Below, piece by piece: positions 7,832-12,595 of a stretch of 55,372 bases of DNA. The notes under the pieces were generated by a model, which saw only the letters and a program-made list of their open reading frames with translations, had not been told where the DNA came from and made no database searches. The translations under genes were made by a program, and so were the position numbers. Source of the stretch: a virus; IMG/VR virus record IMGVR_UViG_3300027978_000009, positions 1 through 55,372 of that record; one strand, written 5' to 3'. Positions within the stretch are counted from its first letter, which is position 1, and every line of letters begins with the position of its first letter.

Positions 7832-9937
7832 CTACTTAGAGTAGATGGGAAAGTAGGTAATCTGATTATAGTTCGCATCAGTAGAACCAATGAGATCAGC
7901 TTCATGCAAGTCATCAATGATTTGATCGCGACGTCGTGCGTCGAGTCCTCGCGTGTTGCGGACAATAACCGTGTGCGGTACGAAGCCTGCTTTTAATGCA
8001 GCGCGTTGATTGTCTGTCGTTGCAGAACCCATGTACTTGTGCGGGGTGTTGATGATGCGCTCGATCTTAAATGAATCCTTCTCGGTGTAGTTGTCACCCG
8101 ATGCCGTGTGCCTGACTTTTTCTTCCCAACAGTTATTACTCCACGTCACAAGCTTGAGCGCCCATTCGCAGATGTCTATGTCGATGACAGGTCGATGAGA
8201 ATCTACGCCTATCGCTACGAGACCAGCGCAGATGAGTGCGTTCTGATTTGCACGACCCCACGTACTCTGTCCGCCCATCGTGCGACGACGGGAGACCTCT
8301 TCGAATTCTTGAAATGCAGTGAACGTTCGCGTGTCTGCAAATTTCACTTGCGTGAAGTCACCGTCCATAGGCTCATGATCGCGTAACAGTTTTGCATGCC
8401 TGTTTATTGCAGATGGGAATACATGACTGCGTCTAGCATTGACTGGGGTGTACTCAGTGCCAGTGTCGAACAGAATGAATCGATTCACGAAGCCCGTCTC
8501 GGAGGCAGCACTTGTTAAGGCCTCCATCAGCATGTCAGGCTGAGCAGTTGCCAACACAGTTAAGAAAGGGTTTTCGAGAGGCGGAATTGTCTGCTTACGA
8601 CCTGGGGATCCCGGCACCCATTTGTTGCCCGCACCGTACAGTGAGATGACGTGACTCAAGATTGCAAAGTCTGGTGAGTTAACTTTCTTCGCGCCTGACA
8701 TGTAACGAGCTGCTTCATCCCAAAGCCACGAGCCCATGCCGACCTCACCTAACACGTCGAGCATCGAGTAATACGATTGGAATCCTGCGAACACAGTGTC
8801 ATCGAGTTTTAGCTTGTGCCCAAACTTACTGACGGCACGCAACGCGGATTCCTTACCACCACCAGTTGGTGCAGTCACCATCAGGTACGGCTGCAGTGGA
8901 GTGTCCCAGCTTTCGATTGTGTAGTTGTTGCAGCTCGCCATCGCAGTGCACATGATTCCTGCGGCCAAGCCAAAGATCGGTTGATCGATAAAGTTTTCAC
9001 GATTAGCCCACTGGGTAATCTCACCAACCAGACCCGGAACCTCAAGCAACCCCACATCGAAACCTAGCTTGGCAGGGCTGGCTTTCATCTTCGGTGGATC
9101 CATCACCAACTTGCCTTCCATCTTGCCGCCTTGCGTCCACCTACGCAGTGCTGCAATCACCGGCATGCTCATCCAACCTTCGAGTGTTGAACTTCCCTTT
9201 GTGCGATCACCTGCCAGATGTTTTTCGATGGTGTTCCTGACCGTGTTCTTTCGATCAGTCATTTCGGTTTCTTCGAGCTGCACGACAGTGAGCACAGCTT
9301 CGATAACACGAACAATTTTATCGGTCGGCCACTCTGCGTGACACAACGTCCCCGTCATTGCATGCACGTAGTCGTGGCGTGAACCTGACTCGGGGTAGAA
9401 GTGAACAAAGACGGACGCAACTGCAATCTCATCGCAGTAACGTTCCATGTCCATTTTGGTTACTTGAGTAAAATCGACATCATCATGCGTGAAGTACATG
9501 CCACCTTCTGGATGTCTCGACGGTGGTATTACAGATTGTGCACCCGTGGATCTGATCTCGACGATGGTGCCCAGTTCCTGGGTCTGCCACTTCTTCGTCT
9601 GCGCGCCGATCACTCGGAAAATGTAGTGAGAGTATTCTTTGCCGGTTCGACCGTAAGTGAACGTCTCAGGGAGGAGGTGTTCGGCCACCCAGACAGCCTC
9701 TTCCATGTCCAGATCGATGTCGGTTGCGTGGTCAGAAGCGTCGCCCCATAGCGCACCGATGTTGTCGCCGAGGTGAAACGCTCCATTATCCAAATCTTCT
9801 TGGACGAGCCGTAAATGAGGCCAATCCTTTGCCTTGGGCCGTTTTGACCTGCTCCGGAGCGGAACTGTGTATACGTTTTTCTCTAACCAGTACTCTGCGG
9901 TTTGCGTTGGATCGAACCCTGCTTTATTCTGTGCCAT
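7832..9937 (-). CDS. Primase-polymerase (AEP) fused to DUF3987-like helicase
   Basis: 701 aa from ATG 9937, which follows AAAGGAACGAG. An upstream ATG at 9988 lacks a site and would run through an inverted repeat. The N-terminal 170 residues look like a bifunctional primase/polymerase domain: DNIGALWG, an acidic DIDLD motif (73-77), SHYIF (about 103-107) and IEIRS-like sequence. Residues 300-600 form a P-loop ATPase of DUF3987 type with TAPTGGGKES (355-364) and Walker B WLWDEAA (404-410). The K is followed by E-S rather than the usual S/T, as in several phage relatives. It probably primes and unwinds DNA at the fork. It diverges from the polymerase operon across a 160-bp gap. Confidence 0.85.
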   Translation of the reverse strand: MAQNKAGFDPTQTAEYWLEKNVYTVPLRSRSKRPKAKDWPHLRLVQEDLDNGAFHLGDNIGALWGDASDHATDIDLDMEEAVWVAEHLLPETFTYGRTGKEYSHYIFRVIGAQTKKWQTQELGTIVEIRSTGAQSVIPPSRHPEGGMYFTHDDVDFTQVTKMDMERYCDEIAVASVFVHFYPESGSRHDYVHAMTGTLCHAEWPTDKIVRVIEAVLTVVQLEETEMTDRKNTVRNTIEKHLAGDRTKGSSTLEGWMSMPVIAALRRWTQGGKMEGKLVMDPPKMKASPAKLGFDVGLLEVPGLVGEITQWANRENFIDQPIFGLAAGIMCTAMASCNNYTIESWDTPLQPYLMVTAPTGGGKESALRAVSKFGHKLKLDDTVFAGFQSYYSMLDVLGEVGMGSWLWDEAARYMSGAKKVNSPDFAILSHVISLYGAGNKWVPGSPGRKQTIPPLENPFLTVLATAQPDMLMEALTSAASETGFVNRFILFDTGTEYTPVNARRSHVFPSAINRHAKLLRDHEPMDGDFTQVKFADTRTFTAFQEFEEVSRRRTMGGQSTWGRANQNALICAGLVAIGVDSHRPVIDIDICEWALKLVTWSNNCWEEKVRHTASGDNYTEKDSFKIERIINTPHKYMGSATTDNQRAALKAGFVPHTVIVRNTRGLDARRRDQIIDDLHEADLIGSTDANYNQITYFPIYSK

Positions 9938-9962
9938 CTCGTTCCTTTGTTGGATGGGTACC

Positions 9963-10008
9963 GGAGAGGGAGTTGTAATCACCGTCACGGGACTTGCACT
10001 CCCTCTCC
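9963..10008. repeat. 11-bp inverted repeat with inner palindrome in the divergent intergenic region
   Basis: GGAGAGGGAGT (9963-9973) is perfectly repeated in inverse as ACTCCCTCTCC (9998-10008). The 24-base centre contains CCGTCACGG, a smaller palindrome. AT-rich sequence (AAATTTATT) follows on the right. It sits between the divergent PrimPol and UDG-polymerase genes. It could be an operator, a replication origin element or a bidirectional RNA hairpin; no clear promoter hexamers were found here. The function is undecided. Confidence 0.75.
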
Positions 10009-10073
10009 AAATTTATTGAGTCTTTATTCTGTGCTGGGTCGGTCATCCTAGCAGAGCCAACAGGAGACTGGAA

Positions 10074-10109
10074 ATGGTCTTGACTTTCGCAGACTCATGC
10101 CGAGTCTGA
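10074..10109 (+). promoter_or_regulatory. Translation-control leader: 11-aa ORF and hairpin enclosing the polymerase start codon
   Basis: CAGGAG then ATG 10074 opens a frame MVLTFADSCRV ending at TGA 10107-10109. Inside it, CAGACTC (10090-10096) and GAGTCTG (10102-10108) form a perfect 7-bp stem whose 5-base loop ATGCC (10097-10101) contains the start codon of the UDG-polymerase gene. No Shine-Dalgarno stands directly before that ATG, so expression may depend on ribosomes translating the leader, or on a protein that binds the hairpin. The sequence facts are direct; the mechanism is inference. Confidence 0.6.
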
Positions 10110-12595
10110 ACCCAAACTGTACCGAGTGTAAACTCCACACTAGCGCTAGCACCGTGTGTATGGCTGGTGATGGGCCGCGCAAAAACCCCAAAATTGTGGT
10201 GGTCGGTGACGCGCCCAAATCGTTAGATGACAAACGGGGCAAGCCTTTCATGGACGAAGGTGGCCGAATACTACGCGGTGAGTTTCAACGAAACGGCTTA
10301 CTCGAAGATGCTTACCTGACAACACTCATTAAGTGCCGCACTCCGAAAGATCGCGCACCTACCGCAGGAGAAATTAAAGCCTGCCGCCCCTACCTCGAAC
10401 AACAACTCGCAGATTTAGATCCCGCTTACGTCGTCACTGTCGGAGTGCCGCCGACGAAAACGCTCTTCCGAGGCAAGGCGAAGATCAACCAATTCCACGG
10501 AGAAGTCATAGAGAATCCCAAAGTCAGTTACGTCGGGATGCCCCTCTTCCATCCGGCTTATACGCTCCGCGATCCGTCGAAGCTTCCCGGATTTCAAGAC
10601 GACATTAGTAGGCTCGCCCGCCTCATGCAGGGTGGCTTGCGAAACGACACAGTTGAATGGAACGTTGTCCGGAAGGGTAACCTCGACACCTTCATTGCTG
10701 AGTTTGAGGAGGCAACCGAATTCGCATACGACTGCGAGACATCTGGGCTTTTCCCATTCGATAAAGACGGGTACGTCACCGCAGTGTGTATCGCGTTGGA
10801 ACACAGAACCTGGGTTATTCCCGGCTTTATGCATCCGGAGTTCCAGCGATTTTCCCACTCCCCGTTTGCCCACGGAAATGCTCTTCGCAAACTTATGCAG
10901 CTTCTGTTTTTTCTTGCTCATCGTGATGGTAAGAAAGCTTACGCGCAGAATGGGAAGTTCGATAACAAATGGATGCGCTGTAAGTTCGGTGGCTCCTTCA
11001 GGCTTGCCTTCGATAGTATGCTCGCACATCACGTCCTCGATGAAAACCTAGCCCACGATCTGACCAGTCTGTGTCGCACCTATCTCGACGAGCCTGAGTA
11101 CGACATCCCGCTCGAAGAAAAGCAGGGCAAATCCACCAAGCCCCTGCGCAACTACAAATACTGTGCAGCCGATGGTGCGTATACCTTCCGGCTCGTCAAG
11201 CTATTCAAGGAAATGCTACGCCTCGAACCAGAGCTGCACCGGCTGTTTTGGAAGCTCGTAATGCCAGGGGCTCGTGCGATGGAAGATGCCGAGATGGAAG
11301 GCATGAACATGAACGTAGCTGCGCGAAAAGAGATCGGCATGCAGCTGCTGTCCAAGAAGATCACACTGCAGCACGAGCTGAATGACATCGCTGGCTACGA
11401 GATGAACTGGGACTCACCAGCACAGATCGGCAAGCTGTTCTATGACGAGCTGGGCCTCAAGTGCACGGTCAAAACAAAGAAGGGTGCGAACTCAACATCG
11501 GAGGCCGCACTGCTCGATCTCAAAGGCAAGCACAAAGTTGTGGACATGCTCCTCGACTACCGTGGCACCGGCAAGATGTTCAACACGTACATCAAGGGCT
11601 GGCAGAAATATCGCGTCGGCAACAAGTACTACTTCGATTACAAACTGCACGGCACCAAGACGGGACGTTACTCGTCACCGCTGCATCCTATTCCACGGGA
11701 CGGGATGATCCGCAACCTGATGGAAGCGCCTGAGGGTTGGACATTCGTCGCCATGGATCTTTCCACGGCAGAGATGCGCATTGCCGCTCACCTGTCGCGT
11801 GATCCGGAAATGTCACGGTGCTTCAAGAAAGGCATTGATGTACACTGGCGCACCCTGATGGAGGTGCTCGCAACGAGTCCGCAAAGTGAGTTAACCGACC
11901 TCGTCTGGGTGACAGCTGAATTACTTGGTGGTGAATGCACCAGCTACTCGGACTGCCTCAACACGATGATGGAGGCAGGCCCGAAAGCCTGCATCAAAGT
12001 CGAGCCTTTCTGGTACGAGGGTAGAACGAGAGCGAAAGCAATCAACTTCGGATTCATCTACGGAATGCACGAAAACAAATTCATGGAAATGGCGAAGCAA
12101 GACTATGGTTGGGACGCGTCAATGGAGGAGGCAAAGAATGCACGTCGTGCGTACTTCCGACTCTACAATCGTCTCGACCCATGGCACACCAAAGTCAAAC
12201 GCCTCGCTCGATCACAAGAACATGTGCGTTGTCTCACCGGCAGACTGCGCAGACTCCCAGGAATTCGAGCCAAGGATCGCTTCGTGAAATCTGAAGCAGA
12301 ACGCCAAGCGCTCAACTCAGGCGTGCAAGCTTTGATCGGCGACTACAAAGCCATGCTGGTTGTCGAGATCCACCAAACATTTTCGCGTAAGAAAGTACGC
12401 CTCGTCGGTGAACACCACGATGCCGTACTGACCATTGTAAAGAACGAACACCTCGACGAATGCGTCCCGCAAATGCTGGAAATGGCAAAACGTCCCAAAC
12501 TTATGGACACATTTAAGATACACTTGAGCGTTCCGATGGAAGGCGAAGCAGAACTAGGCCCATGGGGCAAAGGAGAGAAGTATGTCGTCGCTTGA
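10097..12595 (+). CDS. Uracil-DNA glycosylase-DNA polymerase I (family A) fusion
   Basis: 832 aa. Residues 1-180 match family 4-type UDG: cluster cysteines C8-x2-C11 and C80-x15-C96, GDAPKSLDDKRGKPF (37-51) and HPAY (152-155). Residues 205-375 are a 3'-5' exonuclease with D212-x-E214, N285GKFD289 and Y355-x3-D359. The polymerase follows: TKTGRYSS (520-527), motif A DLSTAEMR (554-561) and O-helix R643-x3-K647-x3-F651-x3-Y655. Motif C reads HDA (774-776) where most Pol I enzymes have HDE. It is the phage replicase; the UDG domain may remove or sense uracil. F651 corresponds to E. coli F762. Fusion of UDG to PolA is known in SPO1-type phages. Start chosen as the only ATG before the first cluster Cys. 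Confidence 0.92.
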   Translation: MPSLNPNCTECKLHTSASTVCMAGDGPRKNPKIVVVGDAPKSLDDKRGKPFMDEGGRILRGEFQRNGLLEDAYLTTLIKCRTPKDRAPTAGEIKACRPYLEQQLADLDPAYVVTVGVPPTKTLFRGKAKINQFHGEVIENPKVSYVGMPLFHPAYTLRDPSKLPGFQDDISRLARLMQGGLRNDTVEWNVVRKGNLDTFIAEFEEATEFAYDCETSGLFPFDKDGYVTAVCIALEHRTWVIPGFMHPEFQRFSHSPFAHGNALRKLMQLLFFLAHRDGKKAYAQNGKFDNKWMRCKFGGSFRLAFDSMLAHHVLDENLAHDLTSLCRTYLDEPEYDIPLEEKQGKSTKPLRNYKYCAADGAYTFRLVKLFKEMLRLEPELHRLFWKLVMPGARAMEDAEMEGMNMNVAARKEIGMQLLSKKITLQHELNDIAGYEMNWDSPAQIGKLFYDELGLKCTVKTKKGANSTSEAALLDLKGKHKVVDMLLDYRGTGKMFNTYIKGWQKYRVGNKYYFDYKLHGTKTGRYSSPLHPIPRDGMIRNLMEAPEGWTFVAMDLSTAEMRIAAHLSRDPEMSRCFKKGIDVHWRTLMEVLATSPQSELTDLVWVTAELLGGECTSYSDCLNTMMEAGPKACIKVEPFWYEGRTRAKAINFGFIYGMHENKFMEMAKQDYGWDASMEEAKNARRAYFRLYNRLDPWHTKVKRLARSQEHVRCLTGRLRRLPGIRAKDRFVKSEAERQALNSGVQALIGDYKAMLVVEIHQTFSRKKVRLVGEHHDAVLTIVKNEHLDECVPQMLEMAKRPKLMDTFKIHLSVPMEGEAELGPWGKGEKYVVA

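Follow-up and report, generated by a model that had tools for sequence, protein, structure and literature searches.

Short leader ORFs overlapping the start of a replication gene are known from SGI1 (S004-repA), plasmid R1 (tap-repA) and IncB (rep). In SGI1 a stem-loop lies over the start and translation of the leader in cis is required (PMC7826253); the Shine-Dalgarno (SD) sequence of repA is there sequestered by a long inverted repeat. The R1 leader is the target of an antisense RNA. The ORF-11 of class 1 integrons consists of 11 codons, has a GGAG SD 8 bp before its ATG and feeds a downstream gene that has no SD, its peptide sequence being nearly irrelevant (PMC8876359); it sits in the recombination site and serves whichever cassette comes first. 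In the coat-lysis coupling of the RNA phages MS2 and GA, ribosomes terminating nearby open or reach the downstream start, and the UAAUG of GA has been examined with the downstream gene lacking an SD (PMC9955659; PMC12548453). Two models of coupling, unfolding and reinitiation, are both current (PMC12548453), and upstream ORFs of fewer than 5 codons inhibit downstream reading (PMC9955659). A different type of control is that of the T4 gp43 operator, which comprises a hairpin some 40 nt 5' of the start together with sequence overlapping the ribosome site, and whose top 10 bases are identical in T4 and RB69 (PMC3014915).

The locus analyzed here lies in IMG/VR record IMGVR_UViG_3300027978_000009, of which positions 1 to 55,372 (55,372 nucleotides) are referred to as the window, and its features are collected in Table 1. 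The fusion gene gave Pfam matches to UDG (1.4e-22), DNA_pol_A_exo1 (1.2e-14) and DNA_pol_A (1.7e-60), and its UDG part was nearest to family 4 (NCBIfam UDG_fam4, 1.9e-33, under the curated cut-off of that model). The first-pass annotation had placed the polymerase ATG in a 5-nt loop closed by seven perfect base pairs, without an SD of its own, and had described a leader ORF with a good ribosome site that begins 23 nt upstream and ends within the stem. All of this was confirmed, coordinates and pairing included. The predicted anti-SD pairing of the polymerase was +0.3 kcal/mol, that of the leader −7.4, and the 35 other genes of the window had a median of −6.6; 34 of these have a better SD than the polymerase and one an equally weak one. 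Among the 883 plus-strand ATGs of the window, that of the polymerase was the only one flanked by arms that form 7 or more Watson-Crick pairs and leave a loop no longer than 9 nt; the minus strand had one such ATG in 906. Given that the 101-nt region by itself is not unusually stable (z = −0.89), the case rests on the comparison with relatives.

Table 1. Features of the polymerase start and its upstream region in the window.
Feature	Coordinates	Strand	Basis and remarks
Conserved motif TGAGTSTTTATT	10017..10028	+	Upstream of leader ribosome site, spacing variable; most relatives
Candidate leader ribosome-site element	10041..10079	+	Conserved; consensus fold of the alignment, only −1.29 kcal/mol
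Leader SD, AGGAG	10062..10066	+	Sequence; 7 nt 5' of leader ATG; anti-SD duplex −7.4 kcal/mol
Leader mini-ORF, 11 codons (MVLTFADSCRV, stop)	10074..10109	+	ATG 10074-10076, TGA 10107-10109; −1 frame relative to polymerase; stop overlaps 3' arm of stem
Hairpin 5' arm, CAGACTC	10090..10096	+	Inside leader ORF; base opposite third base of Ser codon is A or G, matching AGT or AGC
Hairpin loop, ATGCC	10097..10101	+	Polymerase start codon plus 2 nt; NTG in loop in 20/20
Hairpin 3' arm, GAGTCTG	10102..10108	+	Polymerase codons 2-4
UDG (family 4 type)-3'-5' exonuclease-family A DNA polymerase fusion, 832 aa	10097..12595	+	Pfam, NCBIfam

Relatives were found by scanning viral contigs with the polymerase, with its alignment and with divergent members, and one contig from a bacterial bin (L041) was added. 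Nineteen of them, in which the polymerases are about 65-75% identical and the upstream region is intact, were usable and gave 20 sequences together with the window; L016 was left out of the count, its upstream sequence being the same as that of L006. An exact DNA pattern scan for the leader region gave no contigs beyond these relatives. L041 (LJVB01000145.1), which carries a close relative of the polymerase region, belongs to an Acidithiobacillales bin; possibly a phage contig was here assigned to a bacterial bin, and L041 is the sole hint of a host. The assignment of the polymerase start is secure: in all relatives the motif S-L/I-NPxCxxC follows it immediately, and there is no in-frame start upstream.

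The leader is retained in all 20 sequences. Its start lies 23 nt before that of the polymerase (17 nt in L007 and L011), its frame is constant, and its stop occupies position +4 or +13, either as a TGA overlapping the polymerase start (NTGA, 7/20) or beginning 10 nt after it (13/20). The peptides, from MTCIGS to MVLTFADSCRV, are conserved only in their first residues, and with 6-11 codons every leader is longer than the inhibitory class of fewer than 5 codons (PMC9955659). Predicted SD pairing ranges from −3.2 to −7.4 kcal/mol for the leaders and from +0.4 to −4.2 kcal/mol for the polymerases, the latter being the weaker in 20/20, although a weak SD-like stretch precedes the polymerase start in some relatives (L006, L008). 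The polymerase start codons are ATG in 13 sequences, GTG in six and TTG in one. Coupling calls for an upstream ORF with its own ribosome site that ends at or near the downstream start, which was found in 20/20, and for a downstream start that is poorly initiated alone, which the weak SD and the hairpin loop suggest for the polymerase.

Two readings give the leader another role. In the first, the hairpin merely presents the start codon to the 30S subunit directly and the leader ORF is a bystander. Where the stem is strong, the start codon is indeed predicted to be unpaired in most sequences, and ribosomes are capable of initiation without an SD; nevertheless, this is quite unlikely, since a bystander would not be expected to keep start, frame and stop position in 20/20 and a better SD than the polymerase, and in more distant relatives, too, an upstream ORF ends at the polymerase start. 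In the second, translation truly starts at the leader, and an N-terminally extended polymerase results from a −1 frameshift. The leader does lie in the −1 frame with the better ribosome site, but no slippery heptamer is seen in the overlap, the leader stop itself overlaps the start in the seven NTGA sequences, and an NTG start that a fusion would not need is retained in 20/20, so that frameshifting is extremely unlikely.

The hairpin around the polymerase ATG is more than a product of chance. A stem of 4-7 bp with the NTG start in its loop was present in 20/20; when the upstream bases were shuffled, about 5% per sequence reached at least 4 bp (0.99 of 19 expected, maximum 5 in 2000 shuffles). 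In five sequences the 5' arm is shifted by 1-2 nt with a larger loop and the stem is still present. The loops vary in sequence (ATGCC, ATGGC, ATGAG, GTGAC, ATGTC, CCATGGC and others) and in length (5-7 nt). Every one of the 20 sequences has the trinucleotide GAG immediately 3' of the 5-nt start segment, and codon 2 is nonetheless Pro, Ala, Arg, Thr or Ser. The arms of each sequence pair better with each other than with those of other sequences (sum 108, against a mean of 91.8 and a maximum of 105 in 5000 swaps, with no correction for relatedness). Compensatory changes, a check proposed in the first-pass annotation, were found in the relatives: the pair opposite the third base of the Ser codon alternates on the polymerase tree, being A-U in 7 sequences, G-C in 12 and G-U in one (shifted arms included; a separate per-column pairing count took only sequences with the arms in register). 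The Ser-codon base and its partner each changed about five times on this tree, and in four supported independent contrasts the partner was concordant in 3-4 and discordant in none, which in a sign test corresponds to p = 0.125, significance being out of reach at this number. It must be considered that two-sided covariation concerns mainly this one pair, and that several branches of the polymerase tree are weak. The change is synonymous in the polymerase (AGT/AGC) and non-synonymous in the leader (GAC/GGC, Asp to Gly); it is therefore the pairing, and not the leader peptide, that appears to be kept.

Since the G-U pairs fall on the mRNA strand, a structure at the RNA level is indicated. In this regard, a DNA-level palindrome, operator or cruciform, that surrounds the start codon by accident is very unlikely. 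An inverted repeat with a 5-nt spacer within a divergent promoter region would suit it, but its sequence is not kept as a binding site would be, G-T pairs occur on the coding strand, and the start codon is at the centre in every relative, those with GTG and TTG starts included. A transcription terminator or attenuator was ruled out, as there is no U-tract 3' of the stem.

From these observations we propose that the polymerase is probably translated mainly or only by ribosomes coming from the leader mini-ORF. A ribosome would load on the strong leader SD, read the 6-11 codons and melt the small stem on entering it. Termination would follow at the stop overlapping the polymerase start (NTGA) or 10 nt past it. 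Initiation at the polymerase NTG would then be by that ribosome, by its 30S subunit, or by a neighbouring ribosome on the briefly opened RNA. The stem may block independent use of the SD-less start, may present the start in its loop beside the terminating ribosome, or both. The anatomy of the locus, its conservation, the compensatory change and the different upstream gene are observed, whereas translation of the leader, the coupling itself and the role of the stem as gate or positioner are what we infer. Because the local folding probability of the stem is at most 0.12 in 6/20 sequences and the stem has only 4 bp in 7/20, it may not block strongly in such sequences. The data are compatible with reinitiation and with local unfolding alike; of the two, reinitiation fits better with a start that has no SD.

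Eleven more distant phages, including annotated ones of Pseudomonas and Serratia, were examined, and in each the polymerase start either overlaps an upstream ORF at its end or directly adjoins it. By Pfam this ORF is a dCMP deaminase in ten (L013-L015, L021, L070-L072, L081, L082 and L085), while in L084 it is a different long ORF that ends 3 nt before the polymerase start. The deposited polymerase starts of L070-L072 (MW202455, OM982619, OK499995) appear questionable; in Almagne (L071) the annotated start is at 2582, homology can be traced from 2501, and at 2486 there is an ATG lying within the deaminase gene's end. A dCMP deaminase match was present in both outgroup contigs searched and in neither the window nor nine contigs of its clade (38-52 kb); the gene is thus likely missing from the clade, the contigs being fragments of uncertain completeness. 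In the clade, the region 5' of the leader faces a divergent primase gene instead. The simplest history, whose direction we infer, is that the deaminase gene was lost and coupling was retained through the mini-ORF, which would substitute for the deaminase gene ending over the polymerase start. The leader is not recognizable as a remnant of the deaminase C terminus, to which it bears no resemblance by eye.

The divergent neighbour (7832-9937, minus strand) encodes a Prim-Pol/DUF3987-like protein, whose likely start is the ATG at 9937 (SD AAAGGA) rather than the GTG at 9988 of the longest ORF. Between the primase and polymerase genes there is a perfect 11-bp inverted repeat (GGAGAGGGAGT/ACTCCCTCTCC, 24-nt spacer, 9963-10008). 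Many relatives have a G-rich/C-rich inverted repeat in the same place with other arms (e.g., GGGGGTGGG/CCCACCCCC in L041), and TGTTGGGA or a similar sequence within the spacer is common to many of them; possibly the repeat is a primase 5' leader, an operator or an origin element. Additionally, a 13-nt exact direct repeat, CTTTATTCTGTGC, occurs at 9922-9934 (primase N terminus) and at 10022-10034 (conserved upstream motif), and most relatives share it only in part. The upstream motifs, TGAGTSTTTATT included, recur elsewhere in the window no more than by chance. A scan of 9600-10400 for sigma-70-type promoters found none, and Rfam gave one meaningless match (E = 0.5).

Within the conserved element at the leader ribosome site, a candidate helix GGTCA/TGGTC pairs 10041-10045 with 10075-10079 and encloses the leader AUG, and a candidate inner mini-hairpin, CAG-GAGA-CTG (10061-10070), holds most of the leader SD in its loop. 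In the alignment of the element, 92.6% and 96.7% of cells are paired and three pairs change on both sides. A helix between GACCAT and the leader ATGGTC is considered a candidate only, because in most members 2-20% of shuffles reach an equal length by chance and because it is absent in some. Judging by these sequences, the leader ribosome site would be a better place for regulation than the start-codon hairpin. We suggest, as a doubtful extension, that it might act as an operator or a sensor that sets the translation of the leader, perhaps through binding of the polymerase or another replication protein, with the mini-ORF and hairpin relaying its state to the polymerase; if so, a tailed phage would have acquired replication control of a plasmid-like kind after loss of the overlapping dCMP deaminase gene.

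The first-pass annotation had judged autogenous or coupled control plausible by analogy with T4. The coupled alternative is upheld by the retained leader ORF, frame and stop position, by the strong SD of the leader and the weak or absent one of the polymerase, and by the compensatory stem changes. The other alternative, in which the UDG-polymerase binds the start-codon hairpin or the conserved leader ribosome site and represses its own synthesis as gp43 does, is unlikely. The gene does encode a replicative polymerase, the leader ribosome site is conserved in sequence, maybe structured, and located where an operator would be expected, and such repression would be compatible with coupling. However, the enzyme is a family A polymerase with a UDG domain, outside the gp43 family, and stem sequence, stem length and loop all vary, unlike the T4/RB69 operator. 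The likeness is that of a hairpin near the start of a DNA polymerase mRNA; in T4 and RB69 it lies upstream, with a conserved loop and adjoining sequence over the ribosome site, whereas here it surrounds the start codon, its loop is variable and there is no polymerase SD. T4-like autogenous repression through the start-codon hairpin is therefore not supported by the sequences, and polymerase autorepression, if any, would be likelier to target the leader ribosome site.

The arrangement of hairpin and leader, which is shared by a set of uncultured phages, suggests that coupling can outlast the loss of an overlapping upstream gene, with selection retaining it through the smallest ORF able to deliver ribosomes. 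It further suggests that a start codon can lie in the loop of a hairpin that co-evolves and constrains both the leader and the first codons of the polymerase. For annotation, the leader ORF accounts for the possible expression of a polymerase gene without an SD. Given that the downstream gene is SD-less and the leader stop is at one of two fixed places, this compact natural system is suited to separating unfolding from reinitiation. A search of the open-access literature did not find such a leader reported ahead of a phage polymerase.

Of the systems described, integron ORF-11, the S004-repA leader of SGI1 and the coat-lysis coupling of RNA phages are the nearest functional parallels. The locus shares with R1, IncB and SGI1 a leader ORF that runs over the start of a replication gene, and with R1 and SGI1 a stem-loop at this overlap. 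It differs in that the leader of SGI1 is longer than the 6-11 codons found here, that the polymerase has no SD that could be masked, that the phage stem is tiny and holds the start codon in its loop, and that no antisense RNA is known for the phage leader. The integron ORF-11 is comparable in length, in its ribosome site and in feeding a gene without an SD, and the phage leader peptide is likewise not conserved; the phage leader, though, is dedicated to one gene, and it carries a co-evolving start-codon hairpin of a kind not described for ORF-11 in PMC8876359. In MS2 and GA the upstream cistron is a full coat gene of an RNA virus, and here it is a mini-ORF. On the sequence evidence, the coupling proposed for the polymerase is a variant of known mini-ORF coupling, in which the new elements are the phage replicative polymerase that it serves and the hairpin co-evolving around its start codon.
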